64,000 nucleotides of DNA, taken from contig NZ_JAQMHX010000019.1 of NCBI RefSeq assembly GCF_028331445.1, positions 1-64,000 on the forward strand, given 5' to 3'. Below the pieces are notes generated by a model, which was not told the DNA's origin, ran no database searches, and saw nothing but the letters and a program-made list of their open reading frames with translations. Numbering within the stretch: position 1 is the stretch's first letter; each line of letters begins with the position of its first letter. Both the position numbers and the translations under genes were made by a program. Positions 7,959 to 24,556 of the stretch are shown piece after piece. The stretch comes from Candidatus Phyllobacterium onerii (GTDB taxonomy: Bacteria; Pseudomonadota; Alphaproteobacteria; Rhizobiales; Rhizobiaceae).

Positions 7959-8921
7959 TCAGTTGGACAGATTTCCGCCGCTGTTGTTTCCGAGCTTGAT
8001 CTTGTTGACCGACATGTAATCTTCGGTCAAGGAGACAACGTCATCCAGACGGGTGTCCACGGCGAAATGGCCGGCGTCAAGGATCGCGACCCGGGCTTGG
8101 GGAAAATCGCGTTTGAATGCCTCCGCTCCAGCGACCATAAACGCCGGATCGAATTTTCCCAAACGACCAGCGTGGGTAACTGATGGGCTTTCAGCCACGA
8201 CTGCCAAGCCGGATAAGCAGCGATGTTGTTTCGGTAGTCGAAGATCAGGGCCGATTGGATCGGTCCTTGGCCAGGCCTGTTGAGATAAGCGTATTCGTCC
8301 ATCCAAGGTCCGGATCGTAGGCCTCGACGTCGGGGTCGCTTCCAAGATGACGGGCCCGCGTTACGGCCAGCGATTGCTGGGCTTCGATGACCTCTTGTTC
8401 GTGGGCTGCACGGTCGGCCCAAAACGCTTTGCGCTTCTCCCACATCGGCCCCAGACCTTCCGCATAAACATTGCCGTTCTGGAAGATCATGCCTTGTATG
8501 GCGTCGGACCGGTCTGTGCAACGCCCATGCCGACCGGGGCACCGTAGTCCTGCATAAACAAGACGTAGCGGTCGAGCCCTACGACATCGGCAAACTTCTC
8601 AACAACTTCCGACAGATGATTGAACGTGTAGTCGAACGCGACAGGATCTGGCACATCGCTGTTGCCGAAACCCGGGTAGTCCGGCGCAACCATATGATAG
8701 CTGTCTCCCAGCCTGCGCATGAGTGCGTCGAACATCCGCGAAGAGCTCGGAACACCGTGCAGGAGCAGCAGCGCCGGCTTATCCGGCGATCCGCTTTCAC
8801 GGTACGCCATGTTGACGCCCTCGACGGTCGCCGTGCGATAGTAAACCGGCGCGCCCATCGCCGATGATCCTGCTACGGCGAGTGCCGCGCCTGCAATTGC
8901 GAGTTCCCGTGTGGTGGTCAT
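7959..8921 (-). pseudogene. Decayed exported alpha/beta hydrolase
   Basis: Hydrolase sequence is spread over three frames. Segment one starts at the ATG at 8921 (GGAAGGAACCAGC leader) with an N-terminal export-like stretch and continues through LLLLHGVPSSSRMF and FMQDYGAPVG. Segment two begins near IFQNGNVYAEGLGP. Segment three has ALIFDYRNNIAAYPAW. The last segment returns to the first frame with AGHFAVDTRLDDVV. At least three frameshifts are needed, so it is a pseudogene. It is clearly related to the apparently intact hydrolase at 252-1193 (PDYPG-G-SD, DYGAPVG). Confidence 0.8.
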
Positions 8922-9048
8922 GCTGGTTCCTTCCGGTTGCAGATCCGTATAAAAACCCGTTGTCGCAGACGGTCCCTCCCTCCGGAATTGCCGGATTCCG
9001 CAACACACACTTCCACAAACTGGAACAATCCATGATGACTGCCACGTT

Positions 9049-9894
9049 CTAGGAATGTTTAGAGCAAACTACGATGGCTGGACTCAACGTCACTGGCAAA
9101 ACGTTCGAGGAATGGGTTGAAACCATCCGGAGATTCCCAAAAAGGTGCGTGACCAACCCCGGCAGCCGATAGCATTTACCCTCCCACAGATTTGCGAAGC
9201 TGACGCCGTCGAAGTAGTCGAGATTGACGATGCGATCCGCTCCTCCGTTCACGACAGCCAGAGGGATTTGACTGGTTTCCGCGGTGAGACGTTGGTCAGC
9301 GCCGTCTTTGGCCCTGTGCTCGAAGAGAACCTTTCGCAACCTGCCGTCGGCGCGCGCCATCTCCTTGCGCAGAAACGGTTCCGCCGATTTGCCGAAGATG
9401 GCTTCGACGAAGTCGTCGATATCGGTGTCGTTCAGATCTTCGCGGGCCGCTGCACGGACCTGCGGCAAGCCCATGAAACCTTGCGCAAAATTCTCCCTGT
9501 CCAACGGCGGCGATCCGCTGATCATCAACCCTCTCATCGCAGGAAGGTGGTGCATCAGTTCGATGCCGATGTGACCACCGAGAGACCAGCCGAAAACGAT
9601 GACGTCGGCGATATTCATTTTGGCCACGAGTTCGACAGCTGCGTCGGCAAAACCTGAAAGCGTGTACGTCCGCATTGGATCCAGCGCATTGCTGGATCGG
9701 CCGTGGCCGGGCAAATCGAACGCGACGAGCCGGAGGTGTTCCGGCAATTGACTTTGCAGTTGATACCGGAATACGCCCTTGCTTGAGGAGTTCCCGTGGA
9801 TAAGGAGGACGGGCAGGTCGCCCTCGCCGATCTCCTCGACTGAGATCGAGCCGTGCGACGTCATGATCATGTGTTGCTGCCTAGAAATTGCCAT
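9049..9894 (-). pseudogene. Alpha/beta hydrolase with a frameshift before its catalytic histidine
   Basis: As read, 281 residues. There is an HGNSSSKGVF oxyanion region, a Ser nucleophile elbow GWSLGGH, and an acid near NGGADRIV. The C-terminus LPGLVTHLFGNLRM is out of frame: one base lost near 9145 turns the family sequence GVGHAPFWESPDGFNPFLE, still legible in the next frame, into nonsense. The repaired gene would end at 9059. Without the shift repaired the catalytic His is missing and the enzyme should be inactive. This may be a real mutation or a sequencing error. The substrate is unknown. Confidence 0.78.
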
Positions 9895-10161: not shown

Positions 10162-10680
10162 ATGTCACACAGCACGGCTATTACGCGTCGACTGGCACCA
10201 ATCAACACACCCAGCCGCTTCTCTGAAGATGCCCGTCGGGATATTGCGGCGGCGCTGACGGTACTCCTGGCGGATCAGTTCGCGCTCTACATCAAGACCA
10301 AGAATTTCCATTGGCACATGTCGGGACCCCATTTCCGCGATTATCATCGTTTGCTGGACCAACAGGCCGCACAGATTCTGGATACCACCGATGTGATAGC
10401 GGAGAGGGTCAGAAAGGTTGGCGGTACGACAATCCGTTCGATCGCGCATATTGCAGCGGTGCAGCGCGTCCTCGACAACGATGCCAATTTCGTTGACGAC
10501 CAGGACATGCTTGCCGAACTTCGCGAGGACAACGCCATGCTGGCGACCCGTATGCGCGAAACGCACATCGTCTGTTCCGAACACAGCGACGTGGCCACCA
10601 CTTCTTTTTTGGAAAGTTGGATCGACGAGGCTGAAGGTCGGGTTTGGTTTTTATTCGAGAGCCGCAGGCGGAACAATTGA
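10162..10680 (+). CDS. dps: Dps-family ferritin-like DNA-protection protein
   Basis: 172 residues. The Dps ferroxidase signature is complete: NFHWHMSGPHF, then HRLLDQQ and LDTTDVIAER, giving the His-x(n)-His-x(3)-Asp-x(n)-Asp/Glu ligand pattern at the dimer interface. Dps dodecamers oxidise and store iron using peroxide and may bind DNA; the basic N-terminal tail would fit DNA contact. A second Dps lies at 32557-33126. It precedes the nitrile hydratase-like operon by 42 bases, so partial co-transcription is possible. Confidence 0.88.
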   Translation: MSHSTAITRRLAPINTPSRFSEDARRDIAAALTVLLADQFALYIKTKNFHWHMSGPHFRDYHRLLDQQAAQILDTTDVIAERVRKVGGTTIRSIAHIAAVQRVLDNDANFVDDQDMLAELREDNAMLATRMRETHIVCSEHSDVATTSFLESWIDEAEGRVWFLFESRRRNN

Positions 10681-10722: not shown

Positions 10723-11070
10723 ATGCAGGACAACATTGCTGAAACGAAACCATTGGCTCCAAAGGCCGTCCCGGCCCTGGGGGAAACGGCAGTTTATGCA
10801 AAAGGCGAGGCGGTCCGCATACTTGATCGTACGCCGATCGGACATTACCGTGTGCCGCTTTACCTCCGCGGGAAGCATGGCGTTATAGAATCGGTCATAG
10901 AGCCGACGGGCCTCAACAATGAGGAAGAAGGATACGGGCGAAACGCAGGATCAAAGCTGCACTACTACCGGGTTGCAATCCCGATGACGGAGATTTGGCC
11001 TGGCTATACCGGATCCCCCCGGGATGGGCTGCGCATTGAGATTTTTGAAACGTGGCTCGAGAGGAATTGA
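10723..11070 (+). CDS. Thiocyanate hydrolase alpha / nitrile hydratase beta C-terminal-half-like subunit
   Basis: 115 residues matching the SH3-like C-terminal half of nitrile hydratase beta: AVYAKGEAVRIL, GHYRVPLYLRGKHGVIE, YYRVAIPMTEIWP and LRIEIFETWLE. In most nitrile hydratases this is fused behind a helical N-terminal half. Here the two halves are separate genes, as in thiocyanate hydrolase (ScnA/ScnB/ScnC) and toyocamycin nitrile hydratase. It is the first gene of a tight operon, with the metal-binding subunit starting two bases after its stop. Substrate could be thiocyanate or a nitrile. Confidence 0.75.
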   Translation: MQDNIAETKPLAPKAVPALGETAVYAKGEAVRILDRTPIGHYRVPLYLRGKHGVIESVIEPTGLNNEEEGYGRNAGSKLHYYRVAIPMTEIWPGYTGSPRDGLRIEIFETWLERN

Positions 11071-11071
11071 A

Positions 11072-11728
11072 ATGGCGCACGAGGAAAACGGTCACGACCA
11101 TGATCATGATCATTCACACGCTGAAATCGGCCAGACCGAACGTCCGGGATATTACGACAATCTCGAAACCGTGGTGCGAGAACTTTTGGTGTCCAAGGGG
11201 TATTTTGGACCGGACGAGATTCGCCGACAGATCGAAGTACTGGACTCCCGGACTCCCGCGCTTGGAGCAATGGTGGTCGCCCGCGCCTGGGCTGATGATG
11301 CATTCCGCAAACGGTTGTTAGATGACGGCCGAGCGGCCTGCGAGGAGTTAGGGATCACCTTTTATGACCAGACGGGGCTGATCGTTTTGGAGAACACAGA
11401 CAAGGTCCACAACCTCATCGTCTGCACGCTGTGTTCGTGCTACCCGCGCCCGGTTCTCGGCTTGCCGCCGGACTGGTACAAACTCAAGCCATATCGTGCG
11501 CGGGCAGTCTCAGAACCTCGAAAGGTATTGGCGGAATTCGGCACTATTATTCCTGATGACGTTGAAATTCGTGTCAGCGATTCAACGGCCATGGTGCGGT
11601 TTCTGGTGTTGCCGAAACGACCTGAAGGCACCGAAGACTTCGACGAAGTGCAACTGGCCGCGATCGTCACACGCGATACGATGATCGGTGTCGTTGAAGC
11701 CAGCAAGGATATTAGGAGGGGCGAATGA
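11072..11728 (+). CDS. Cobalt-type catalytic subunit: thiocyanate hydrolase gamma / nitrile hydratase alpha-like
   Basis: 218 residues. The metal claw is VCTLCSCYPRP with Cys118, Cys121 and Cys123. The Thr in C-T-L-C-S-C marks the cobalt type (iron enzymes have Ser), and two of these Cys are normally oxidised to sulfinic/sulfenic acids. Tyr follows the last Cys, where classical nitrile hydratases usually have Thr-Pro-Trp. The N-terminus is His-rich (GHDHDHDHSHAE), perhaps for metal acquisition. ATG 11072 has GAGGAATTGAA upstream; a longer upstream ORF start is not needed. It overlaps the next gene by four bases. Confidence 0.82.
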   Translation: MAHEENGHDHDHDHSHAEIGQTERPGYYDNLETVVRELLVSKGYFGPDEIRRQIEVLDSRTPALGAMVVARAWADDAFRKRLLDDGRAACEELGITFYDQTGLIVLENTDKVHNLIVCTLCSCYPRPVLGLPPDWYKLKPYRARAVSEPRKVLAEFGTIIPDDVEIRVSDSTAMVRFLVLPKRPEGTEDFDEVQLAAIVTRDTMIGVVEASKDIRRGE

Positions 11729-12084
11729 CCCAGACCGAACAGCTGTTGAAGCGCCTGCCGAATGATATAGGCGGAACATCGGCCGACCCCATTTCCGTAG
11801 TGGATCATGAACTCGAGCCGTGGGAACGGCGCTGTCACGCTTTGGCGGACGTTCTCGACTTCCATAAGATCATCAATACGGAAGAGAAGCGGCGCGGCGT
11901 CGAGGCGCTGGGCACCGAACTGGTGGGCAAGCTCTCCTACTACGAGCGGTGGATTGCCTGTTTCGCCAACATCCTCTTCCAAAAGGGTATTCTCACGCCA
12001 GAAGAGCTTGCACTGAAGATGAAGGAGGTGGAGAGCCGTTGGGACGATTTTGATAAGGAGTCTACGCAAGCCGCGAGGTCATGA
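11725..12084 (+). CDS. Thiocyanate hydrolase beta / nitrile hydratase beta N-terminal-half-like subunit
   Basis: 119 residues matching the helical N-terminal half of nitrile hydratase beta: DIGG near the start, LEPWERRCHALADVL, LSYYERWIACFANIL and GILTPEEL. Nitrile hydratase activator proteins (P14K/P15K type) share this fold, so an activator role is an alternative. No separate activator gene is visible nearby. Gene order here is C-half, metal subunit, N-half, which to my recollection differs from the scnB-scnA-scnC order of Thiobacillus. ATGA overlaps on both sides imply coupled translation. Confidence 0.72.
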   Translation: MTQTEQLLKRLPNDIGGTSADPISVVDHELEPWERRCHALADVLDFHKIINTEEKRRGVEALGTELVGKLSYYERWIACFANILFQKGILTPEELALKMKEVESRWDDFDKESTQAARS

Positions 12085-12836
12085 ACGTCGTGGCAGGTCA
12101 AAGAGCAAAGACGTGCTTTCAAGAAGACGATCCGGAATCCGGTGTCCTTCGTCGTGCCACTGTGGAGTTCATTGGCACCGCTCTTTTGATGCTGGCAGCT
12201 ACGGGTGCTGGATTAACATCCCACCGACTTTTTCAAAACAGCCTCGGGTTGGGATTGTTCGTCAACGCAATCGCAACAGCGGGGTCCCTCGTAGCTCTCA
12301 TCTTTGCGTTTGGATCTGCATCCGGCGGGCACTTCAATCCTTTGATCACCTTGCTTCAATGGTTGAGCGGCGAAAGAAAGTTGAACTGTACCGTTGCCTA
12401 CGTAGCGGGTCAGTTCGGGGGCGCGATAGCAGGTGTGCTGATGGCAAACGGCCTGTTCCAGGCCACTGACACGGCAAATGACTTGGTAACACCTTGGGCG
12501 CTGGTGCTAAGTGAGGCGGTGGCCAGCGGCAGTTTGATGGTCATCGTGTTCGGCTGCAGCCGAAGCGGGCGGAAAGACACCGGCCCGATCGCCGTCGGCC
12601 TGTGGCTGGCGGCGGCAATTCTCGCAACACCGTCCGCATCCTATGCCAACCCTGCGATTACTTTCGCGGCGTTTCTGGCGGAAGGTCCGATATCCTTGTC
12701 GGCGCTCGCCGTGAGCCTTTACGTTCCTGCGGAGATTTTGGGTGCGCTGGTGGCGCTCGCGATCGTTGCCGTTGCCTACCCGACTTCGGTTTTGCCCCCG
12801 CGTGCCGACGACCTCATGAGGGCGACCAACGTCTGA
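12081..12836 (+). CDS. MIP-family channel (aquaporin/aquaglyceroporin-like)
   Basis: 251 residues with six predicted transmembrane helices and two half-helix loops. The first loop reads SGGHFNPLI, so the usual NPA is NPL; the second is the normal YANPAITFA. It overlaps the previous subunit gene by four bases and is therefore part of the enzyme operon. MIP channels pass water, glycerol, ammonia or other small neutral solutes; a role in moving the enzyme's substrate or product (a nitrile, amide, carbonyl sulfide or ammonia) is inferred from position only. Confidence 0.82.
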   Translation: MNVVAGQRAKTCFQEDDPESGVLRRATVEFIGTALLMLAATGAGLTSHRLFQNSLGLGLFVNAIATAGSLVALIFAFGSASGGHFNPLITLLQWLSGERKLNCTVAYVAGQFGGAIAGVLMANGLFQATDTANDLVTPWALVLSEAVASGSLMVIVFGCSRSGRKDTGPIAVGLWLAAAILATPSASYANPAITFAAFLAEGPISLSALAVSLYVPAEILGALVALAIVAVAYPTSVLPPRADDLMRATNV

Positions 12837-13654: not shown

Positions 13655-13744
13655 ATCGCCAAGGGGCCGCCAGCAGCTGACGGTTCAATTGAGTACGGAC
13701 AAATCGAACTAGCCCTCAACACCGGAATTTCATGCCATACCTCA

Positions 13745-13855
13745 TGTCTGAGTGAGCTTACCTCCCTATAAAGTCCCCCCGGCGATCGTTACCTCCTCGC
13801 GGTCGCCTCCTTTGGGCAGCAGTGCTGAAACCGGCCTGCTGCCCCTTTCTTGTTG
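13745..13855 (+). ncRNA. Candidate anti-Shine-Dalgarno small RNA
   Basis: An 8-bp perfect stem (GGCGATCG at 13781-13788 with CGGTCGCC at 13800-13807, counting one G-T pair) shows ACCTCCT in its 11-base loop. Further CCTCC motifs lie unpaired at 13761 and 13806. A strong terminator hairpin follows at 13814-13844. This layout resembles the rhizobial alpha-r14 (NfeR1-like) small RNAs, which carry CCUCCUCCC loops that block ribosome sites. The 5' end is a guess and the family match is from layout, not an alignment. Confidence 0.42.
13814..13853 (+). terminator. Rho-independent terminator
   Basis: Perfect 9-bp stem GGGCAGCAG / CTGCTGCCC around a 13-base loop, followed by CTTTCTTGTT. It probably ends the candidate small RNA or the transcript of the exported protein at 13301. 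Confidence 0.6.
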
Positions 13856-14039
13856 GCTCGCCTCCCTCATATCCCGAAGTTTTTCCAGCCAGCATGATCC
13901 GGGCGCATGGAAGGCGGCTCGTTACGGTGCTCACCGACATGGCGAGGAACACGGCAGCGGGGGGAATTTGCGACAGAATCCGAAATCGCCCCCGGGCGTA
14001 CCGGGAGCGATTTCGTACCTATCTGGTGCCATGTCTCAC

Positions 14040-14306
14040 TTAGTTCAGGTGAAACATGGAATGCGTATCCATGTGGCTCCCGAAGAGGTAGGACGGGCTG
14101 GTGGTGTTGCCCTCATTCGACTCGTCATGGAGTCCTATACGGTCGAAATTCTCACGAGTATTGCTAACGGATCTCCCCTCATGGGAAGCGCGTGATCCGC
14201 CCGAGTCGTGGGAGCTGTGCGAACCGCCCGAAGCGGCATAAGCGCTAGCGAACGGAGTGGAAATTAAGAGGGCAGCGATTGCGGTTCTGAAGATAAAAGA
14301 GCGCAT
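14040..14306 (-). CDS. Small exported Ser/His-rich protein
   Basis: 88 residues with a signal peptide ending in FASAYAASG, then a low-complexity Gly/Ser/His region (GGSHSSHDSGGSRASHEG) and a polar tail. The signal peptide closely resembles that of the protein at 37313-37660 (APFASAYA), suggesting a family of small secreted proteins. Function unknown. Confidence 0.55.
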   Translation of the reverse strand: MRSFIFRTAIAALLISTPFASAYAASGGSHSSHDSGGSRASHEGRSVSNTRENFDRIGLHDESNEGNTTSPSYLFGSHMDTHSMFHLN

Positions 14307-14326
14307 TTTGGCGTCTCCTAAGTATT

Positions 14327-14352
14327 GAGGGCAACTTGGTGCCCTCCTTTTA
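14327..14352 (+). terminator. Hairpin GAGGGCA/TGCCCTC followed by T-rich tract
   Basis: A 7-bp inverted repeat with a 6-base loop, then CTTTTAT on the plus strand. It could end a plus-strand transcript. On the minus strand it lies just upstream of the start of the gene at 14040-14306 and could form a leader hairpin instead. Confidence 0.35.
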
Positions 14353-14673
14353 TCGGACCGTCCAGTTCCGTCGCGTCACGCTGGATATATAACTCCACCG
14401 CCGGCGGTTCTCGGTCTGCAAGTCCATAATATATACTATTAATAACGAGTCAAATTAACAAAAAATAATATTTATGTTACATATTTTGCCACAATAAGTT
14501 GGATAGAACACTTTTTTGCCGAATATGATTCATTAATTTCGTGGAAATGTTCACAACATAATCATATATGTCACGACAGCAAAAATTTGTTGCCAATTTT
14601 TAGCGATTTAAATCTCACACATTGCTGGTTTTAGTATGATATTACTGTGATCGTACCGTGAGAACTCGCCGGC
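14353..14673. other. AT-rich intergenic spacer
   Basis: From about 14420 to 14640 the sequence is strikingly AT-rich (runs such as AACAAAAAATAATATTTATG), unlike the surrounding genes. No reading frame of note. It sits between divergently oriented, unrelated genes and could be a silencer-binding (Ros/MucR-type) or promoter region, or a junction of transferred DNA. Confidence 0.5.
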
Positions 14674-15294
14674 TCAAAGTCGCCCCGTGAGGAAAACATA
14701 TTGTGCAGAGTAGGGTTCAACATGAAATGCTTCCTCAGTTCCGCAACGGCCCGAATATAGGCCGCCGTGGGTGTCCAGCCGCTGCACGGCGATAACGTTT
14801 GTCAGAACGCCGTCGCCACCTCGTTTCATGACCCGCAACATTAGCCAGGGGATATCATCCTTCGTCGCACCCGGCGCCTCGGCTTCGACTTTGCCGATGA
14901 CACTGCTTCCATCGGTAAATTCCCATGATGGACCGCTAAAATGCCGGCCAACGGTGACCCCATCTTGAATGAGCGTCGCAAGGGGCTCGCGAAACTGCCA
15001 CTGTGTTTTTCCAGTTCGATCTTCCTTGCACTCATACAACTGAACTCCCTCGGCATGGACATTCGCAACAACCGTCAATCGATCTGTGTCAAAGCCTGCC
15101 GGAACCTCAGCTGCATGAGCGGCGGGAGCGAAAAGCAAGACTGCAGCCGTCATGATCAATGCTGGATGAAAGTGTGTGGAAGCACTGGACAAAGCATCGT
15201 CAGATTTGAGCTGAGGTTGGGCCAATCCGTTTTCCTTGAGCATCTGCATATTCTTTGTCGCAATTATCGTCGAGCGAGCCGGACTTCTGATCAA
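14674..15294 (-). CDS. DUF3455 exported protein
   Basis: Up to 206 residues. A signal peptide ends at PAAHAAEV, and the DUF3455 core follows: EGVQLYECKE, REPLATLIQDG, RHFSGPSWEFTDGSSVIG, IPWLMLRV and IAVQRLDTHGGLY. The family is secreted and of unknown function. The open frame starts with TTG at 15294, overlapping the stop of the efflux adaptor by four bases; internal ATGs at 15249 or 15150 are alternatives. Third gene of the RND efflux operon. Confidence 0.72.
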   Translation of the reverse strand: MIRSPARSTIIATKNMQMLKENGLAQPQLKSDDALSSASTHFHPALIMTAAVLLFAPAAHAAEVPAGFDTDRLTVVANVHAEGVQLYECKEDRTGKTQWQFREPLATLIQDGVTVGRHFSGPSWEFTDGSSVIGKVEAEAPGATKDDIPWLMLRVMKRGGDGVLTNVIAVQRLDTHGGLYSGRCGTEEAFHVEPYSAQYVFLTGRL

Positions 15295-16538
15295 GCTGGT
15301 GCGACGGTTTCGGTGTTGACGCGGACTTTACTCCCTTCCACCAGTTGCACTGGCGGGTTACGAATGACCTTGTCGCCTTGCTTGAGGCCTTCCTTAACTT
15401 CGATGGTCGTTCCCAGATCTCTTGCCACAGCTACTTTCCTTATGTGAACAGTGCCATCCTCAACGACGGCCACCTGCAATCCGTTCGCGTTGAAGATGAG
15501 GGCGTCAGCGGGCACCGACAGGCTTGGCGTCTTGCGTGGAATCTGGAGCTGGACGGTGCAGTAGATTCCTGGCGTGAGGACACCGTCAGGATTGGGCACG
15601 TCGATTTCAGTCAGCAAAGTGCGGGTTCCCGGCTGCAATGAATCGGCTATTCGCGTTACCGTCCCGGAAAAAATACGGCCCGGGGTCTCGGGAACCTCGA
15701 TACTGGCCTTGTCACCGGGGCTAACCCCGAATGCTTCGTCCTGTGGCACGAAGACTTGCGTACGGATCACGTCTCCCTGCATGATGGCGAACATGAAGGT
15801 GCCGCTGGTCGTGTCGGCCTGCACAAGGCTACCCTTGTCAATGTTACGCTGGGTAATGATGCCATCAAAGGGCGCGACAACCTGCTGATAGAGTTGTTGC
15901 TGACTCAGCACCTCAAGTTGATCTTGCTGGGCCTTCACATTTGCCTGCGCGACACCCACCGTCGCCTGTTGCGCCTTTAAGGTCTGCACATCAATGGTAC
16001 CCTGCTGCTGCGTAATCCAGCCTTTGGCGACCAGCGGTTTATCGCGATCCCACGTGACCTGTGCGAGGTCAGAATTAGCCTGCGCCTGTTTCAAAGCCGC
16101 CTGGAGTTGCCCCAAGGTAGCTTGGGCTTCCAGGATTTGGTCATCGAGTTCCGGCACGGCAATCCTGGCGAGCAATTGGCCTTTCTTTACATGATCTCCG
16201 ATATCAACTTCACGTTGTTCGACATAGCCGCTGGCTCGTGCAAAGATTTCGACGTCGTCGAAGGCTGCGGTGGTTGCCGGGAGACTAACGGTTACGGTGT
16301 CGGTACTCGGCTTTATCTCGGCGACGTGCACAGATGGCACGAAATCGCGGAGCTGAACGGCAGTGGCCATAACCTCCTCGGCTCGCGAATGATATCCCCA
16401 CGCACCAAAACAGATTAACGCGACCAGCCCGAGCAGCGTGCCAAGCCCAACAAGCCAGCCTCCCCACCTGCGCGACACTTGCGGTTGTGGATTATAGATA
16501 TGCTCGATGCGCCGATCTGACGGTTCTAAGGGTTTCAT
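15291..16538 (-). CDS. RND efflux periplasmic adaptor (membrane fusion protein)
   Basis: 415 residues. One N-terminal membrane anchor (about 25-48), then the HlyD-type order: half lipoyl domain with VEQREVDIGDHVKKGQLLARI, a long coiled-coil hairpin (about 125-200, rich in QAQ repeats), the second lipoyl half VVAPFDGIITQRNIDKGSLV, and a beta-barrel with DKASIEVPETPGR. It bridges the inner-membrane pump and an outer-membrane channel; no TolC-like gene is in the window. It overlaps the pump gene by four bases. Confidence 0.88.
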   Translation of the reverse strand: MKPLEPSDRRIEHIYNPQPQVSRRWGGWLVGLGTLLGLVALICFGAWGYHSRAEEVMATAVQLRDFVPSVHVAEIKPSTDTVTVSLPATTAAFDDVEIFARASGYVEQREVDIGDHVKKGQLLARIAVPELDDQILEAQATLGQLQAALKQAQANSDLAQVTWDRDKPLVAKGWITQQQGTIDVQTLKAQQATVGVAQANVKAQQDQLEVLSQQQLYQQVVAPFDGIITQRNIDKGSLVQADTTSGTFMFAIMQGDVIRTQVFVPQDEAFGVSPGDKASIEVPETPGRIFSGTVTRIADSLQPGTRTLLTEIDVPNPDGVLTPGIYCTVQLQIPRKTPSLSVPADALIFNANGLQVAVVEDGTVHIRKVAVARDLGTTIEVKEGLKQGDKVIRNPPVQLVEGSKVRVNTETVAPA

Positions 16539-19500
16539 GCTAGTTCCTCGTTGAATACGCCGTGGGCCGCCTTGCCGTCCTGTCCGCCGCGAAGCATCGC
16601 AAACAGGTACGGGACGAAGAGGAGTGTCGTAGGAGTCGCGAACAGCAGGCCGCCGATGACAGCGCGCGCCAAAGCGGCATTCTGTTCCTCGCCGGCGCCA
16701 CCTATGGCCATTGGGATCATGCCGACAATCATCGCTGCTGCAGTCATTAGCACAGGCCTGATGCGCGTATGACCGGCGTCGATCGCCGCCTGGAACGCCG
16801 GCTTGCCCGTCAGTTGCTGCTCTCTCGCGAACGTGACCAGCAAGATCGAATTAGCGGACGCGACGCCTACGGCCATGATCGCTCCCATAAGAGAGGGCAC
16901 GTTAAGGGTTGTTCCGGTGACAAAGAGCATGACCAGAATGCCGCACAAGGTTGCAGGCAACGCCAGGATGACGACGAACGGATCACCGAAATTCTGGTAG
17001 TTTACGACCATCAACATATAAACGAACACTGCCGCGAACAGGAGACCGATACCAAGATCCCAGAAAGCGTCGTTCATGCTCTGGATCTGGCCAGCGACCT
17101 GAATGGAGTTGCCGGGAGAAAGCTGCTTTTGCATATCCGTCACTATTGCGTTGATCTGGTTGGAAACGCTCCCGAGATCGCGGCCCTCAACGCTTGCGAA
17201 GACTTCATAAAGAGGCTGGATATTCGCCTGGTTACTATTGGTTGCGATGCTGCTCCGCTTGAATGTTGCGACATTGCTGAGCAGTCCTGGTATCTGAGTA
17301 CCGGCTGTGGATATGGTTGAGGACACAGGCGTATTGCCGAGGTCGTTCAGGGAACTGATTTTTGGTTCAGGTGTCTGAACAGCGAGATAATACGGAATAC
17401 CGGTCGTTGGATCAGTCCAGAAATTGGGCGAGACCTGTTCCGAGGAACTCAGGCTAACATTGATGTTCGTGGCGATGGTGTCTGCATTGAGGCCGAGTTG
17501 CGCTGCGCGCGTGCGATCGATCGTAGTGTCGAACGCCGGCGCGTTAACTTCCTGTTGGAGGTGGGCGTCCACGACGCCCGGAATGGCGGCGATGCGCCGC
17601 TGGAGCTCCGTTGCCACCCGCAGGTTTGTGGCACGGTCGTACCCGACGGTGCGGACATCGATTTGCGCGGGGAGACCAAAATTGAGAATCTGTGTGACGA
17701 TGTCGGCCGACTGAAAATAGAACAGCACATCTGGAAACGCTTCCGGCAACGCTGATCGCAATTTGCGCACATAGTCGGCAGTAGGCGCGTGGCCAGGCTT
17801 GAGGGCGACAAGGATAACGCCATCATTGACGCCGATCGTCGAGCCGTCGGTGAACGCCAGGTTATACGCTCGGGCTGGGAGCCCGATATTGTCGACGACA
17901 AGCTGGCGGTCGCTGTCGGGAACGATCTCGCGAATCTTTTCCTCGACTTGCTGGAAGATGCGCTCTGTCGTCTCAATCCGCGTTCCAGCGGGCGCACGAA
18001 CATGAAGTTGGATTTGGCCTCCATCGATCGCAGGATAGAAGTCCCGACCAACGAAGATCAGCAAGGTGGTTCCAAGGGCAAGGACCAGGACGGCGACGAC
18101 CGGCATGATCAACCGACGTGTAAGCAGCAACGTCAACAGCCCGACATAGCGGACACGCATCGCCTCGAATCCATGCTCGAACCTGGCATGAAAGCGGGAG
18201 AACCAATTTTTCGACGTGCCATGCCGCTCACCCTTGAGCAACAGACCAATCGTGATCGGGGTGAGGGTTCTCGAAAGGGCATAGGACGCCAGCATGGCGA
18301 ACACGACTGCCATGCCAAGCGGCGTGAACAAATATTTGGCCGGTCCCTCAAGGAAAATCACGGACGTGAACACGCAGCTGATGGCCAAGGTCGACACCAG
18401 CGTCGGCACAGCAATGCCTGCCGCTCCGTGCAGCGTCGCCTGCGCCAGCGATTGTCTTTCTTCAGTGAGCAACCGGTGCGTATTCTCGATCGTCACCGTA
18501 GAATCGTCGACAAGGATGCCCACGGCCAGTGCGAGGCCGCCAAGCGTCATGGTGTTGAGCGTCTCTCCAAGGAAATACAGCGCAATGACCGATGACAGGA
18601 TTGCAAGCGGTATGGTTATCATGACGACCAATGTCGATCGCCACGATCCTAGAAACAGCAGGATCATCAGCGCAGTGAGGGCTGCCGCGATGGCGCCTTC
18701 GCGAAGCACGCCGGCGATGGATTGCTTGACGAATACCGACTGATCGAAAATCTCTTTGATCTCCATACCGGGAGGCGCGGACGCGCGTGCCGTAACCAAT
18801 GCTCGCCGGACAGCATTGACCACTTCCAAAGTTGAAGCATTGCCATTCTTGATGACACTCAGAAGGACTGAACGACGCCCGTCCTGACGAACGACGTTTT
18901 GCTGAACAAGCCAGCCATCATGAACCTGACCGACATCTTTTACGAAAACCGTAGCCCCATTGACCACTTTGACCGGAATGTCGTTGAGTTCATCGATCGT
19001 CGCCGGCGTCGCGTTCGTGCGGACAACGTATTGAGTATCGCCGATCTTGGCAGTACCTGAAGGTAGGGTCAGATTCTGCGTGTTGACTGCGTTGACGACG
19101 TCGAGTGGGGTGAGACCTTTGGCAAGCAGCTTCGAAGGGTCCAGGTCAACCATGATTTGCCGGTATTTCCCGCCAGCGGGGGTTGGCAATGTGATACCGG
19201 GGATTGGCGCCAACTGCTGGCGAATGCGATAGATGCCATAGTCGTACAGCTGCTGCTCATTGAGTGTATCGGAACTCAGGCTGATCTGCAGGACGGGCAC
19301 GCTGGAGGCATTGAACTGCACCACGAGCGGCGCCTGGATTCCTGCTGGCAAAAGCGCGCGGATGGCGTTTGTCGCCGACACAATCTGCGCAATTGCGAGA
19401 TCAAGATTCACGTCCTGCTGAAAATAGATCTTCTGTATCGACAGCCCGCCTAGGGTCTGCGCTTCGATATTCTTGATGCCATTGACGTTGGAGCTGATTG

Positions 19501-19708
19501 CATACTGACTATAGGTGGTGACACGCTGCTCCATTTCAGGTGTGCTGAGGCCACCATAGCTCCAGATCACCGATACAACCGGAATGTTGATTTCCGGGAA
19601 GACATCCGTTCGCATCTCGTAACTTGCGACTCCGCCAAGAAAGAGTATTAAGGCGGCTAACACGTAGAATGTGTGCGGGAACCGCAGCGCGAACCGAACT
19701 ATACCCAT
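16535..19708 (-). CDS. RND-family efflux pump, inner-membrane permease
   Basis: About 1057 residues with the two-fold RND layout: TM1, a large periplasmic loop, TM2-7, a second loop, TM8-12. The TM4 proton-relay acids are present in GILVDDSTVTIENTHR. It resembles the AcrB/HAE1 type rather than metal exporters. The start at 19708 (MGIVRFALRFPHTFYVL) places TM1 directly after the start; the open frame extends to 19771. Substrate unknown. It heads an operon with the adaptor and DUF3455 protein and is divergent from a second RND system at 20268. Confidence 0.9.
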   Translation of the reverse strand: MGIVRFALRFPHTFYVLAALILFLGGVASYEMRTDVFPEINIPVVSVIWSYGGLSTPEMEQRVTTYSQYAISSNVNGIKNIEAQTLGGLSIQKIYFQQDVNLDLAIAQIVSATNAIRALLPAGIQAPLVVQFNASSVPVLQISLSSDTLNEQQLYDYGIYRIRQQLAPIPGITLPTPAGGKYRQIMVDLDPSKLLAKGLTPLDVVNAVNTQNLTLPSGTAKIGDTQYVVRTNATPATIDELNDIPVKVVNGATVFVKDVGQVHDGWLVQQNVVRQDGRRSVLLSVIKNGNASTLEVVNAVRRALVTARASAPPGMEIKEIFDQSVFVKQSIAGVLREGAIAAALTALMILLFLGSWRSTLVVMITIPLAILSSVIALYFLGETLNTMTLGGLALAVGILVDDSTVTIENTHRLLTEERQSLAQATLHGAAGIAVPTLVSTLAISCVFTSVIFLEGPAKYLFTPLGMAVVFAMLASYALSRTLTPITIGLLLKGERHGTSKNWFSRFHARFEHGFEAMRVRYVGLLTLLLTRRLIMPVVAVLVLALGTTLLIFVGRDFYPAIDGGQIQLHVRAPAGTRIETTERIFQQVEEKIREIVPDSDRQLVVDNIGLPARAYNLAFTDGSTIGVNDGVILVALKPGHAPTADYVRKLRSALPEAFPDVLFYFQSADIVTQILNFGLPAQIDVRTVGYDRATNLRVATELQRRIAAIPGVVDAHLQQEVNAPAFDTTIDRTRAAQLGLNADTIATNINVSLSSSEQVSPNFWTDPTTGIPYYLAVQTPEPKISSLNDLGNTPVSSTISTAGTQIPGLLSNVATFKRSSIATNSNQANIQPLYEVFASVEGRDLGSVSNQINAIVTDMQKQLSPGNSIQVAGQIQSMNDAFWDLGIGLLFAAVFVYMLMVVNYQNFGDPFVVILALPATLCGILVMLFVTGTTLNVPSLMGAIMAVGVASANSILLVTFAREQQLTGKPAFQAAIDAGHTRIRPVLMTAAAMIVGMIPMAIGGAGEEQNAALARAVIGGLLFATPTTLLFVPYLFAMLRGGQDGKAAHGVFNEELA

Positions 19709-19917
19709 ATCTATTCCGAAACTCCTGTTGTGCAGGAAGAGTGAGGGCGGAAGATTTCCACCCATCGGCAAATTTGTCCGGCCCGAGCGGTTCTGTCCGC
19801 GATAGGTCTAGTCAAGACGGCAACTGGCAAATGCAATAAGAATGCTGAGTCTGTCGGCGAATAAGGCTCCGGTAGACATCATCAAGATTCTTCGGCGCAT
19901 TGGCATCGGGCCATAGG

Positions 19918-19989
19918 TTAACGAGGCAAGGAAAGATGCTCCATCATACAGGCGTGGACGGGAATAATGCGCTCGTCTGATAAACTCAT
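19918..19989 (-). CDS. 23-residue micro-protein with C-M-M-E core (copy A)
   Basis: A tiny frame in the spacer between the divergent pumps. Its core RIIPVHACMMEHLSL aligns with the peptide at 26289-26375 (12 of 18 positions identical), with third-codon changes that keep the amino acids (CTT/TTA, TCC/TCA, TTG/CTG). The upstream DNA is also similar (TCTGG...AACC-x-AAGTATG). No clear ribosome site. The coding role is inferred from the substitution pattern; function unknown. Confidence 0.4.
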   Translation of the reverse strand: MSLSDERIIPVHACMMEHLSLPR

Positions 19990-20267
19990 ACTTTGGTTTG
20001 GGTGTCCGCAATCCAGATTGACTGTTATTATCGCCACAACGGAAAGGCGTAAGCTTTGAGCTGGTTTTCGGCAAAATTGCCGCCGGCAACCGGCCCTGAG
20101 CGTGGCAATACTTGTCAAAGATCGATCACAACAAACTCGTGCAGAGCCTTGGACGGACCCCATCTAACTGACGGGCGCAGGATGATGACGACGGCGTCGA
20201 AGCGCATTGCCGTATTTCCTCGAATAATTAACGCGTCAATACCATGCAAGTCAACTTGGAGCACAGA

Positions 20268-21440
20268 ATGCAAAGTTCACTTCGATACAAAGTCAGCATA
20301 GTCATTGGCGCAGTCGTGCTTGCTACAGCCGGAGTCTTCTGGCTCGCGAGTAACGATAAAACGGTCGCCAAAGATCAGCCCGCCGCTGCTCTTATACCGG
20401 TTGAAGCGTCAGCAGCGGTACAAAGTGATGTACCCGTCTATTTGAATGGTCTGGGCACAGTTCAGGCTTTCAACACCGTCACCATGAAGGCCAAGGTTGA
20501 TGGCGAATTGCAACAGGTGCTCTTCACGGAGGGGCAGAAGGTCAAGAAAGGCGATCTTTTGGCCGTGATAGACCCTCGTCCGTTTCAGGCCGCTCTTGAT
20601 CAAGCGTCAGCAAAAATGGTGCAGGACCAAACCAACCTCAGCAATGACGAGGTTATTCTGCAAAGGGATAAAAAACTTACCGCTCAGCAGTTCACGACTG
20701 TAGAGACTACGCAGACACAGCAAAGCACCGTTGCCCAACTGCAGGCGCAAATTGCACAAGACGCCGCAGCCAAAAATTCTGCTGCCGTATCGCTGTCCTA
20801 TACGCAAATGACTGCGCCCGTCGATGGACGCACAGGCATCAGGCTGGTTGATCAAGGCAACTATGTCCATGCGACCGATACCACCGGGATTGTCGTCATT
20901 ACGCAAACGCAACCGATTTCAGTCGTGTCGACACTGCCTGAAGATGATCTGGAGGCAGTGCGTGCTGCGCAGGAAGCCGGTCCTGTTACCGTGACGGCTT
21001 TCACGCGCGATGGGAGTACAAATCTAGGTACCGGAACGCTCTCGGTCATTGATAATGAAATAGACCAGACCAGTGGCACGATGCGCTTGAAATCGACGTT
21101 TCCCAATATCGACGAGAAGCTTTGGCCCGGGCAATTCGTCGACATCCGGCTACAACAAAAAATCGTTCATCAAGCAGTTACAGTACCTTCTGCGGCAATT
21201 GAGAGGGGGCAGAATGGTTTCTTCGTCTACGTCGTGAAACCGGACAATACCGTCGAAGTTCGCCCGATCGCGCCGGGACAGATCGCGAACGGTCAGGCAG
21301 TGATCGAGAGCGGACTGGCAGCGAGCGAGCGCGTTGTCACTTCGGGACAATATCGTCTGGATGCGGGTGCAAGAGTTTCAATACAAGACACACCAAGCCA
21401 GACCACAACGCTGGGTGATGGTGAGACGGAGCCGGGCTGA
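20268..21440 (+). CDS. RND efflux periplasmic adaptor, MdtA-like
   Basis: 390 residues. An N-terminal membrane anchor (about 8-27) precedes the lipoyl motif GELQQVLFTEGQKVKKGDLL, IDPRPFQAALDQA, the coiled-coil hairpin and MTAPVDGRTGIRLVDQGNYV, which are typical of MdtA/MexA relatives. The ATG at 20268 has GGAG seven bases upstream and is preferred to that at 20244. It overlaps the pump gene by one base (TGATG). It is divergent from the first RND operon, with a 560-bp shared regulatory region. Confidence 0.88.
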   Translation: MQSSLRYKVSIVIGAVVLATAGVFWLASNDKTVAKDQPAAALIPVEASAAVQSDVPVYLNGLGTVQAFNTVTMKAKVDGELQQVLFTEGQKVKKGDLLAVIDPRPFQAALDQASAKMVQDQTNLSNDEVILQRDKKLTAQQFTTVETTQTQQSTVAQLQAQIAQDAAAKNSAAVSLSYTQMTAPVDGRTGIRLVDQGNYVHATDTTGIVVITQTQPISVVSTLPEDDLEAVRAAQEAGPVTVTAFTRDGSTNLGTGTLSVIDNEIDQTSGTMRLKSTFPNIDEKLWPGQFVDIRLQQKIVHQAVTVPSAAIERGQNGFFVYVVKPDNTVEVRPIAPGQIANGQAVIESGLAASERVVTSGQYRLDAGARVSIQDTPSQTTTLGDGETEPG

Positions 21441-24400
21441 TGTCGAATTGGTTTATCCAGCGACCGATCGCAACGTCGCTGCTCATGCTGGCTATTCTCG
21501 CAATCGGCCTGGTAACCTATCCTTTGCTGCCCGTAGCGCCGCTGCCCCAGGTCGATTTTCCAACGATTCAGGTTTCTACACAGCTACCAGGAGCAAGCCC
21601 GCAAACAATGGCGTCTTCGGTTACCCAACCGTTGGAGCGGCAGTTCGGTCAAATTTCTGGCGTTACACAGATGACGTCCGTGAGCACACTCGGCAGCAGC
21701 TCGATCACCCTGCAGTTCGAACTGAATCGCAATATTGATGGCGCGGCGCAAGATGTGCAAACTGCGATCAACGCCGCCGGTGGTCAGCTACCAAGCAATC
21801 TCCCATCGCCGCCGACCTATCGCAAGGTGAACCCTGCAGACCCGCCCATACTGGTGCTTGCACTTACGTCCGATACACTCCCATTGACGCAGATCGATGA
21901 TTTTGCCGAAAATGTCCTTGTCCAGCATATCAGCCAGGTCTCCGGCGTCGCCCAGGTTTCGGTCTTTGGCCAGCAAAAGCCAGCTGTCCGCGTGCAAGTC
22001 GATCCGCGCAAGATAGCTGACCTCGGGCTGTCACTGGAGGATGTTCGCTCGGCAATCATCGCCACGACGACGGATGCACCAAAAGGTAGCATCCAGGGTG
22101 CTTTGCGAACCTTTACGCTCTATGATAATGACCAGCTCCTGGCAGCAGGTCCATGGAACAACGCGATCATTGCTTACCGAAACGGCGCTCCGATACGGAT
22201 AAGCGACATCGGCCAGGCAATCGATGCGCCGGAGAACACGCAGATTGCGGCATGGGCCGATGGCAAGCCGGCTATTCTGCTGCCAGTTTCCAAACTCCCC
22301 GGCGCGAATGTTCTTGAGACTGTAGGTCAGATAAAAGCATTGCTGCCGCAGTTGCAGGCAATAGCGCCGCTTGCGCTTCACATATCGAGTTTGAGCGATC
22401 GGACCACGACCATCCAAGCGTCTGTCCTCGACGTGAAATTCACCCTGTTGCTCACGATCGCACTAGTGATCATGGTGATATTCATTTTTCTGCGCAACGT
22501 CTGGGCGACGGCAATTCCCGGTGTCACTGTCCCGCTCGCGCTGGTCGGAACTTTCGCGCTGATGTATGTGCTGGGGTTCAGTCTGGACAACCTTTCGCTG
22601 ATGGGGTTGAGCATTGCGGTCGGCTTCGTCGTCGACGATGCGATCGTCATGCTGGAGAACATTCAGCGCCACATGGAAGCGGGTAAATCGCCATTGCAGG
22701 CCGCCATCGACGGCTCCAGAGAGATTGGTTTTACCATTATTTCGATAAGCCTCTCACTTGTGGCTGTCTTCATTCCCATCCTGTTCCTAGGCGGAATCGT
22801 TGGTCGGCTTTTTCACGAGTTTGCCATAACCGTAACCGTGACGATTGCAGTTTCCGCACTTGTCTCGCTGACACTCACGCCAATGCTGTGCGCCCGTTTT
22901 CTGCGAGCGGAACACAACGCAAAACATGGCAGGTTCTTCCTGGCATCGGAGCGAGCCTTCGAAGCACTGCTGAACGGGTACCGCGTTACGCTCGATATCG
23001 CCTTGCACCACCATCGCATAACTTTTGGCATTTTCCTGCTAACGCTCGTTGCCACAGGTTACCTTTTTATCAGTATCCCAAAGGGCTTTTTCCCAATTCA
23101 AGATACAGGCTTGATTACAGGCCTTCTACAGGGTGCACAGGATACATCGTTTGCCGACATGGCACGACATCAGGTAGAGGTCGGCAAGGTGGTCGCCAGC
23201 GATCCCGCGGTCGCTACGGTGGGGATGGCTGTCGGCGGCGGATCCGGTAATACACTCAATACCGGGCGTATGTTTATCACTCTCAAGCCACACGATCAGC
23301 GAGATGCGACGGCAAGCCAGATCATTGGTCGCCTGCGCCCAAAATTGGCGCAGGTTGAAGGGGTGAAGCTGTTCCTTCAACCGGCTCAGGATATCAATGT
23401 CGGCGGTCGGAGTTCAGCGACCCAGTTTCAATATACGCTACAGGATGGCGATGCGAACGAGCTGAATAGCTGGGCGCCGAAGCTTTTGGCAAAATTAAGC
23501 TCCTTGCCTGAGCTTACGGATGTTGCGACGGATCAGCAATCCGACGGAACAACCGTCACTCTCGACATTGATCGGGATCAAGCGGCTCGCTTTGGGATCA
23601 CGCCTCAAAGCATCGACGACACGCTCGACGATGCCTTTGGTCAACGGCAAGTCACTCAATATTTCACCGACATCAACAGTTATCACGTGATACTGGAATT
23701 GTCTCCGAAGGCTCAGAGCTCACCACAGGCAATTAACCAGCTCTACATCAAATCGCCACTGACCGGTGCGCAAGTTCCGCTCAACGTACTTGTAAAAGAG
23801 ACGACGCAGCCGACCACCGTTCTTGCGATCAACCACCAGAGCCAGTTTCCGTCGGTGACGTTATCATTCAATCTTGCTCCGGGAGTGGCTCTGAGCCAGG
23901 CTGTTTCGGCCATCCACCAAGCCGAAACTGCCCTGGGAGTGCCCCCGACACTCATTGCTACCTTTCAGGGCAATGCGCAGGCATACCAGACATCCTTAGC
24001 CAGCGAACCTTATCTCGTTTTGGCCGCGTTGGGCGTGATATACATCATTTTAGGTGTGCTTTATGAAAGCTACGTCCATCCGCTGACCATCCTGTCAACT
24101 CTACCATCCGCAGGTCTCGGCGCTCTCATCATGCTGTGGAGCTTCGGCTTCGACTTCACGGTTATCGCCCTGATCGGCGTCATTCTCCTAATCGGTATTG
24201 TCAAGAAAAACGGCATCATGATCGTTGATTTCGCTATTGCCGCGGAGCGCGAGCATGGCTTGCGACCGGAGGAAGCAATCCGGCAGGCGTGCCTGCTACG
24301 CTTCCGGCCAATCATGATGACGACGATGGCTGCAATTCTTGGCGGCATTCCCCTCATGTTGGGGCATGGGACGGGCTCCGAACTGCGACAGCCCCTGGGA

Positions 24401-24556
24401 TACGCAATGGTTGGAGGACTCATATTGAGCCAGGCAATGACACTCTATACGACGCCGGTTGTCTACCTCTACCTCGACAGATTGAGCCTCTGGATGTCGG
24501 GGCGGAACAGAACGTCCTTTCCCGCAGCTGTCACTACCAGTGAACCGGCTGAATAA
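21440..24556 (+). CDS. RND efflux pump permease, MdtB/MdtC-like
   Basis: 1038 residues with the full RND topology. MSNWFIQRPIATSLLM starts TM1; the periplasmic loop has LPQVDFPTIQVSTQLPGASP; TM4 carries VDDAIVMLENIQRH with the proton-relay Asp pair; the second half includes SIPKGFFPIQDTGLI and KKNGIMIVDFAI. In enterobacteria MdtB and MdtC form a mixed trimer; here a single permease follows the adaptor, so it probably acts as a homotrimer. No outer-membrane partner gene follows. Confidence 0.9.
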   Translation: MSNWFIQRPIATSLLMLAILAIGLVTYPLLPVAPLPQVDFPTIQVSTQLPGASPQTMASSVTQPLERQFGQISGVTQMTSVSTLGSSSITLQFELNRNIDGAAQDVQTAINAAGGQLPSNLPSPPTYRKVNPADPPILVLALTSDTLPLTQIDDFAENVLVQHISQVSGVAQVSVFGQQKPAVRVQVDPRKIADLGLSLEDVRSAIIATTTDAPKGSIQGALRTFTLYDNDQLLAAGPWNNAIIAYRNGAPIRISDIGQAIDAPENTQIAAWADGKPAILLPVSKLPGANVLETVGQIKALLPQLQAIAPLALHISSLSDRTTTIQASVLDVKFTLLLTIALVIMVIFIFLRNVWATAIPGVTVPLALVGTFALMYVLGFSLDNLSLMGLSIAVGFVVDDAIVMLENIQRHMEAGKSPLQAAIDGSREIGFTIISISLSLVAVFIPILFLGGIVGRLFHEFAITVTVTIAVSALVSLTLTPMLCARFLRAEHNAKHGRFFLASERAFEALLNGYRVTLDIALHHHRITFGIFLLTLVATGYLFISIPKGFFPIQDTGLITGLLQGAQDTSFADMARHQVEVGKVVASDPAVATVGMAVGGGSGNTLNTGRMFITLKPHDQRDATASQIIGRLRPKLAQVEGVKLFLQPAQDINVGGRSSATQFQYTLQDGDANELNSWAPKLLAKLSSLPELTDVATDQQSDGTTVTLDIDRDQAARFGITPQSIDDTLDDAFGQRQVTQYFTDINSYHVILELSPKAQSSPQAINQLYIKSPLTGAQVPLNVLVKETTQPTTVLAINHQSQFPSVTLSFNLAPGVALSQAVSAIHQAETALGVPPTLIATFQGNAQAYQTSLASEPYLVLAALGVIYIILGVLYESYVHPLTILSTLPSAGLGALIMLWSFGFDFTVIALIGVILLIGIVKKNGIMIVDFAIAAEREHGLRPEEAIRQACLLRFRPIMMTTMAAILGGIPLMLGHGTGSELRQPLGYAMVGGLILSQAMTLYTTPVVYLYLDRLSLWMSGRNRTSFPAAVTTSEPAE

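Follow-up and report, generated by a model that had tools for sequence, protein, structure and literature searches.

A 64,000-nucleotide stretch of DNA from Candidatus Phyllobacterium onerii (positions 1 to 64,000 of contig NZ_JAQMHX010000019.1; hereafter the window) contains a four-gene unit in which a cobalt hydrolase of the nitrile hydratase/thiocyanate hydrolase (SCNase) family, its beta subunit split between two genes, is joined to a gene for an MIP (aquaporin-type) channel. Judging from sequence comparison, trees and gene neighbourhoods, we tentatively favour a reading in which the unit encodes an SCNase-branch Co(III) hydrolase of the cytoplasm, acting on a small anionic pseudohalide, together with a co-translated AqpS-like channel that would pass a neutral reactant; we give this reading somewhat less than an even chance.

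The first gene of the unit (10723..11070, plus strand) encodes a 115-aa ScnA-like protein, the C-terminal half of beta, which matches PF02211 at 58 bits (cut-off 27.7). It is followed by an ScnC-like alpha, or metal, subunit of 218 aa (11072..11728, plus strand; PF02979, 256.4 bits; claw CTLCSCY), an ScnB-like N-terminal half of beta of 119 aa (11725..12084, plus strand; PF21006, 57.3 bits) and an MIP channel of 251 aa (12081..12836, plus strand; PF00230, 79.2 bits). Below, bC and bN denote the C- and N-terminal halves of beta, C-a-N and N-C-a the gene orders bC-alpha-bN and bN-bC-alpha, and G000 the source genome. A 1-bp gap separates bC from alpha, and 4-bp overlaps join alpha to bN and bN to the MIP gene. 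The most probable start of alpha is 11072; the list of open reading frames gives an ATG at 11024, which falls within bC. Reading frames and Pfam matches confirm the four near-touching or overlapping genes, in the order bC-alpha-bN-MIP, that an earlier note on this DNA had described, and its proposal of a split-beta cobalt enzyme of this family is borne out by Pfam, the claw and the trees presented below. Ratios of nonsynonymous to synonymous substitution rates (dN/dS) in seven pairs of relatives indicate purifying selection on all four genes; because of this, and because the arrangement recurs in relatives, it exceeds what chance would produce.

Our comparison covered 145 loci with an alpha match, which comprise 30 C-a-N loci, 86 N-C-a loci and a remainder that are fused, cut off or have one half unseen by the profiles; the scan of named genomes took the best 80 of 593 stretches, ranked by likeness to the window. 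L155, which duplicates L035, was dropped before later counts, and L032, whose alpha gene is cut by an IS21 element, was re-added for the neighbourhood count. One genome contributes two copies (L153 and L154), the Streptomyces loci L207 and L208 joined the set later, and the plasmid records H6 and H9-H11, which coordinates and names mark as near-copies, were left out. A further layout was seen in five loci (L138-L141 and L143) from small genomes of 0.9-1.4 Mb, in family f4 of the same order, where bN is fused before alpha in one frame with bC behind.

The window enzyme has the hallmarks of the Co-type nitrile hydratase superfamily, namely a CTLCSC claw, two beta arginines and a tyrosine. The claw CTLCSCYPRP is present in 29/29 C-a-N alphas, bN residues Arg56, Tyr72 and Tyr73 are kept in 29/29 C-a-N loci, and the bC motif H-x-R-x-P-x-Y-x-R-G is kept in 28/29. 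Against curated models, alpha scores 240.8 bits with the nitrile hydratase model TIGR01323 (cut-off 249.85) and 214.9 bits with the SCNase model TIGR03887 (cut-off 291.45), and the beta halves score 42 and 46.6 bits with the full-length beta model TIGR03888 (cut-off 152.2). The enzyme thus falls outside nitrile hydratase in the equivalog sense, for which alpha exceeds TIGR01323 and a full-length beta exceeds TIGR03888, and outside SCNase by the curated TIGR03887 cut-off, whereas its tree placement with ScnC puts it with SCNase. A TIGR03887 search at E 1e-75 gave 0 matches in 299 genomes of the phylum, with controls likewise at 0, which makes it uninformative. Among solved structures, the best relatives of bC are Co-type nitrile hydratase beta subunits (C-half) followed at a lower level by ScnA, and the best relative of bN is ScnB (2dd4_B).

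Trees of alpha (69 rows) and of concatenated sequences (62 rows) define this placement. In the alpha tree, 29 C-a-N rows form one clade (support 100/97), which joins the Streptomyces enzymes at 96/80, and these together join the group holding ScnC (2dd4) at 96/84; ordinary two-subunit enzymes are distant from the window alpha, with a long-branch warning around them. In the concatenated tree, the C-a-N enzymes and the SCNase group each have 100/100 support, and C-a-N, the Streptomyces loci (order bN-bC-alpha-MIP) and the SCNase group form one clade (100/96), the C-a-N enzymes standing beside the SCNase group rather than nested within it. By these trees the gene order bC-alpha-bN marks one clade, and a single event best accounts for the switch to it from bN-bC-alpha.

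The only other alpha match in the source genome (G000:C3, locus L165) belongs to an ordinary enzyme, whose alpha gene adjoins the genes for a full-length, 219-aa beta and an activator-like protein. It shares the CTLCSCY claw with the window enzyme but differs in its fused beta, its adjoining activator-like gene, its distant place in the tree and a Trp in place of Arg126. Because the genome has this ordinary enzyme elsewhere, and because of where the window alpha falls in the tree, we reject the idea that an ordinary nitrile hydratase was split locally; the subunits do not group with two-subunit nitrile hydratases, the outcome that the earlier note had named as telling against its proposal.

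The closest described system is the Thiobacillus thioparus SCNase, ScnABC (PDB 2dd4), which resembles the window enzyme in its three chains, its cobalt claw, the arginine at ScnC Arg136 and the His-rich alpha N-terminus and is its sister or near-sister in the trees. The scn genes stand in the order bN-bC-alpha. The window differs in its order bC-alpha-bN, the attached MIP gene, a Lys at ScnB Arg90 and an alpha below the TIGR03887 cut-off.

Alignment equates window bN Lys55 with ScnB Arg90, bN Arg56 with ScnB Arg91 and alpha Arg126 with ScnC Arg136. Two of these arginines, ScnB Arg90 and ScnC Arg136, reportedly govern SCNase selectivity, a finding attributed to Yamanaka and colleagues in 2013. 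Both positions are basic in the 29 C-a-N members checked, and in the window Lys55 and Arg126 supply the two basic residues of an SCNase-type pocket, with Arg replaced by Lys at the first site. Reference nitrile hydratases have Phe or Tyr at the Lys55 position and Trp at the Arg126 position. PDB chain 3vyg_C aligns a Trp with Arg136 of 2dd4_C. Position bN55 is Lys in 29/29 C-a-N loci and mostly Leu in N-C-a loci, where it is basic in 8/86: L024 and L041 (Streptomyces), L071, L074, L088, L096 and L097 (SCNase group) and L047. L026, a member of the SCNase group with a fused beta, has Arg there. Since many split-beta enzymes have an arginine at the alpha site, only the basic pair of bN55 and alpha126 is telling. 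With basic residues at both pocket positions, a small anionic substrate such as thiocyanate would fit.

The pocket also bears on the chief rival, in which the enzyme is a nitrile hydratase for a small neutral nitrile (such as cyanamide, acetonitrile or hydrogen cyanide) and the MIP imports the substrate or exports the amide (urea, acetamide or formamide). MIPs are channels for neutral solutes, bC is closest to Co nitrile hydratase, alpha is nearer the nitrile hydratase model than the SCNase model, and a three-subunit enzyme with nitrile activity is known in ScNHase, according to the available text of PMC7329996. One C-a-N locus, L020, also encodes, some 3 kb downstream, an isochorismatase-type cysteine hydrolase whose nearest NCBIfam model, far under its cut-off, is biuret amidohydrolase; besides L020, no amidase is named in nine annotated C-a-N stretches, the gene tables of which are incomplete. 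The trees, however, group the enzyme with SCNase, and Lys55 and Arg126 make basic a pocket that is lined by Phe or Tyr and Trp in reference nitrile hydratases. We therefore regard the neutral-nitrile enzyme as unlikely, though still a serious competitor.

The channel gene recurs with the enzyme across its relatives. An MIP match above 60 bits lies within 2.5 kb in 20/30 C-a-N loci, in 4/4 Streptomyces loci and in 0/84 other N-C-a loci, 56 of which have 2.5 kb on both sides and show no MIP there even at E 1e-3; a Fisher test of 20/30 against 0/56 gives p 1.6e-12 but treats loci as independent, which they are not. The earlier note had asked whether the MIP gene is conserved beside the cluster, and the possibility it had raised against itself, that the gene is not, fails on these counts. 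The MIP gene follows bN in C-a-N loci and alpha in Streptomyces, and in 23 of the 26 loci with an MIP the distance from the preceding stop to its nearest start is -26 to +4 bp. Three loci depart from this: L034, and the pair L163 and L164, where a gene for a metallo-beta-lactamase (MBL)-fold protein stands between bN and MIP. At L034, from Pseudomonas abietaniphila, the segment 12105-13144 has a second, divergent bN-like gene that overlaps an MIP gene by 4 bp; no alpha or bC match lies beside it.

The distribution of the trait is sporadic and partly plasmid-borne. Same-genus genomes have an alpha match in 20/20 cases including G000, none of which, besides the window's own, is more than 52% identical to the window alpha. 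The bN profile finds 8/397 genomes of the order at E < 1e-45 and 7/394 of the family at 1e-40, G000 being among both, and the alpha profile at 1e-98 finds G000 only, of 398 genomes in the phylum. A Streptomyces alpha at 1e-75 is found in 3/246 Streptomyces genomes. Of 180 plasmid records with a match, 18 reach 60% identity at their best place, one of them (H38) being an ordinary enzyme with fused beta; viral contigs gave 2 short matches. In the window itself, parts of 13676-24505 are about 85% identical to a P. zundukense plasmid, in a match that leaves out the cluster.

Such a pattern would suit a channel that is a passenger, carried along on plasmids or islands together with the enzyme genes while serving a different purpose (water, osmotic or metalloid stress). 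The MIP gene is moreover absent or broken in some clusters, its near relatives are arsenic channels, and its dN/dS (0.08-0.335 in the seven pairs) is the highest of the four genes in 6/7 pairs. We nonetheless think a passenger improbable: a start-stop overlap or near-contact is kept across the clade, the channel is last in the unit even where gene order differs, the MIP gene is under purifying selection, and it is missing from the 84 other split-beta loci, including the 56 with full flanks.

The channel itself has the attributes of the MIP/aquaporin family (PF00230, two NPA-type half-helix motifs and six helices), with a structure model that is only moderate. An AlphaFold2 model built with 5 rows reached a predicted local distance difference test (pLDDT) score of 69.1 and a predicted template modelling (pTM) score of 0.71, compared with a pLDDT of 43.2 from the MIP sequence alone; all 50 PDB matches listed by Foldseek are aquaporins. 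Its first motif is the altered NPL recognized in the earlier note, and its second is NPA, followed by Ile. At the positions of the E. coli AqpZ filter, which we take to be numbered Phe43, His174, Thr183 and Arg189 (the residue letters were checked in the alignment), the window MIP has Thr, a gap, Ser and Ile. Across 22 C-a-N cluster MIPs, Val, Ile or Leu stands in place of Arg189 and nothing aligns with His174, the first motif is NPL in 19/22 (the others have NPT, NPV or NPI), and the first filter position is Ile, Val or Leu in 16/22. Six aligned ars-operon MIPs share the window's Thr at that position and likewise have neither filter Arg nor filter His, yet their first motif is NPA or NPV; the open filter is therefore common to the ars branch, and NPL is the more particular change.

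The MIP tree agrees: the 22 cluster MIPs group with ars-operon MIPs (100/99), and the AqpZ types fall elsewhere, as do the Streptomyces cluster MIPs, in which the filter Arg is retained. An AqpZ-type water channel is rejected on this tree together with the filter alignment. AqpS, the arsenite channel of ars operons in Sinorhizobium meliloti, is bidirectional for arsenite according to the available text of PMC4435449. The window MIP resembles it in belonging to the same branch, in lacking the filter Arg and His and in the Thr at the first filter position, and differs in its NPL motif and in adjoining a Co hydrolase instead of ars genes. Outside the clusters, the matches listed include 31 plasmid relatives of the channel (H50-H80); six were examined, one of them chosen for the name aqpS, and ars genes lie beside all 6. 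The tree suggests that the Streptomyces channel was recruited separately, but we do not claim this as shown: an approximately unbiased (AU) test of all 24 cluster MIPs as one clade is borderline (p 0.0506, against 0.381 for the 22 alone), and long branches meet there. We entertain, with considerable doubt, the broader idea that, in a branch beside SCNase, enzyme and channel form a co-translated unit serving as one detoxification or nitrogen-gain module, the channel having been acquired on two occasions, in Pseudomonadota from the AqpS branch and in Streptomyces from a different MIP branch.

The SCNase-branch reading leads to the following putative scheme. The three subunits would come together in the cytoplasm as a Co(III) hydrolase of SCNase type. 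A small anion, thiocyanate first of all, would enter the cell and bind the basic pocket, and hydrolysis would release small neutral products, ammonia and carbonyl sulfide if the substrate is thiocyanate. The channel, perhaps physically coupled to the enzyme, would then let a neutral product (ammonia is the likeliest) or some other small neutral reactant cross the membrane down its gradient, the product leaving or being exchanged, much as AqpS lets out the product of arsenate reductase. The earlier note had supposed that the channel carries the neutral substrate or product; two basic residues in the pocket weaken the substrate half of that proposal and leave the product half standing.

Several observations weigh against this scheme. 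The alpha subunit is under both equivalog cut-offs and scores nearer the nitrile hydratase than the SCNase model, and the grouping of C-a-N with Streptomyces alone is weak in the concatenation (80/44). A basic bN55 also occurs in L047, which falls outside the SCNase-containing clade, and L137, a locus with bN fused to alpha that was left out of the trees, has Arg at this position. Ten of the 30 C-a-N clusters have no MIP within 2.5 kb: the gene is more distant in two (L032, at 3.5 kb behind an insertion sequence, and L034, at 5.5 kb), reduced to an N-terminal remnant of 19 bits in two (L151 and L153) and absent from six (L023, L030, L036, L037, L152 and L156), so the channel is dispensable. 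Carbonyl sulfide and ammonia, furthermore, cross membranes fairly well unaided. Mutants lacking the filter Arg give a mixed picture, AQP1 remaining closed to urea and glycerol and AQP4 becoming open to both in the available text of PMC6937295.

Cobalt supply is another recurrent feature of these loci. CbtA, NiCoT or CbiM is encoded within 5 kb in 19/30 C-a-N and 4/4 Streptomyces loci, compared with 2/84 other N-C-a loci, and CbiM lies at 6-8 kb in four further C-a-N loci; CbtAB are predicted cobalt transporters (PMC2667541, in the portion available). No cobalt transporter lies within about 8.5 kb of the cluster in the window, and the source genome encodes two CbtA and two NicO elsewhere. Cobalt would be imported by CbtAB, NiCoT or CbiM, whose genes adjoin the cluster in many relatives and lie at other places in the source genome. 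Two other genes were seen in these neighbourhoods. A cytochrome P460 gene follows the cluster in L022, L030 and L039, with CbtBA divergently upstream, and a DUF302 gene separates the cobalt transporter genes from MIP or bN in L020, L023, L028 and L029 and is found within 5 kb in 13/30 C-a-N loci.

Maturation may proceed without a separate activator. None is named in nine annotated C-a-N stretches, L027 being unannotated, and a one-sequence activator profile matches no C-a-N or Streptomyces locus, while it does match those of L033 and L165. In Streptomyces canus, ScNHase (AnhDEA) contains cobalt and has no activator gene, its bN half AnhD acting as a metal and swapping chaperone, as far as the available text of PMC7329996 describes it. 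Because bN can act as a chaperone, a separate activator may be unneeded, and the window bN could play the same part. The earlier note had instead assigned cobalt recruitment to the His-rich alpha N-terminus, which has 6 His in 32 residues. This idea does not hold up: a tail with at least 5 His occurs in 27/30 C-a-N alphas but also in 55/85 N-C-a and 11/13 ordinary same-genus alphas, and ScnC has a His-rich N-terminus too. We accordingly rejected the tail as a special cobalt-recruiting feature.

Upstream of the cluster, a Dps-like ferritin gene (10162..10680, plus strand; PF00210, 89.5 bits) ends 42 bp before bC and possibly shares its transcript; promoter and terminator patterns gave 0 and 4 matches, no excess over shuffled sequence. 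Dps genes are also near the C-a-N clusters L020 and L034. Proteins of one MBL-fold family are encoded near 12/32 loci compared (including L152, L153, L154, L156, L163 and L164), the one in L152 with a visible twin-arginine leader, and alpha/beta hydrolases near 13/32. The nearest NCBIfam model to the MBL-fold neighbour, far under its cut-off, is a SoxH-related zinc hydrolase; this result, and PDB names that lend no support, led us to reject a SaxA-like isothiocyanate hydrolase. In the window, an alpha/beta hydrolase in several pieces and different frames, apparently a broken gene, occupies 7959-9008 (minus strand), and a second, of 281 aa, lies at 9049-9894 (minus strand). Farther away, 41641-63462 holds formate-dehydrogenase-like and other molybdopterin oxidoreductase genes and several MoeA-type genes, one of which is fused to a PBP-like domain.

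These neighbours raise the possibility that the cluster is part of an island for oxidative or envelope stress, in which the enzyme removes a toxic stress product and the channel vents the product or peroxide. Dps in the window, L020 and L034, and the MBL-fold and alpha/beta hydrolases near 12/32 and 13/32 loci, are what such an island would contain. They vary, however, in place and strand, they are members of large, common families whose link here depends on single matches, and an MBL gene stands between bN and MIP in L163 and L164 only. We consider a stress island very unlikely.

To our knowledge, no nitrile hydratase or SCNase has been described with an aquaporin-type channel as its dedicated partner, and we know of no described enzyme with the order bC-alpha-bN. 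Among the matches listed from the open-licence literature, no report pairs a nitrile hydratase or SCNase with an aquaporin or MIP, and the available portions of PMC12625717, PMC3557214, PMC3458049 and PMC10098168 do not describe the pairing. Split beta subunits like that of the window are found in ScNHase (PMC7329996), which also shares the use of cobalt and the lack of an activator gene, and in toyocamycin nitrile hydratase (PMC8574189), in the text available from these sources. ScNHase differs in its order bN-bC-alpha and in acting on organic nitriles, and aquaporin is mentioned 0 times in the portion of PMC7329996 available. PLSDB annotations already name the genes singly, as nitrile hydratase subunit alpha, SH3-like protein and aquaporin.

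The recurrent enzyme and channel unit points to a so far undescribed means by which bacteria deal with small, toxic nitrogen compounds. The basic pocket pair provides a sequence marker that may set SCNase-like enzymes apart from the numerous split-beta proteins that now bear the plain annotation nitrile hydratase. If enzyme and channel work together, the pair would offer a testable answer to how bacteria move thiocyanate-like compounds, or the ammonia derived from them, across the membrane, and a relative of an arsenic-resistance channel would have been turned to carbon-nitrogen chemistry.

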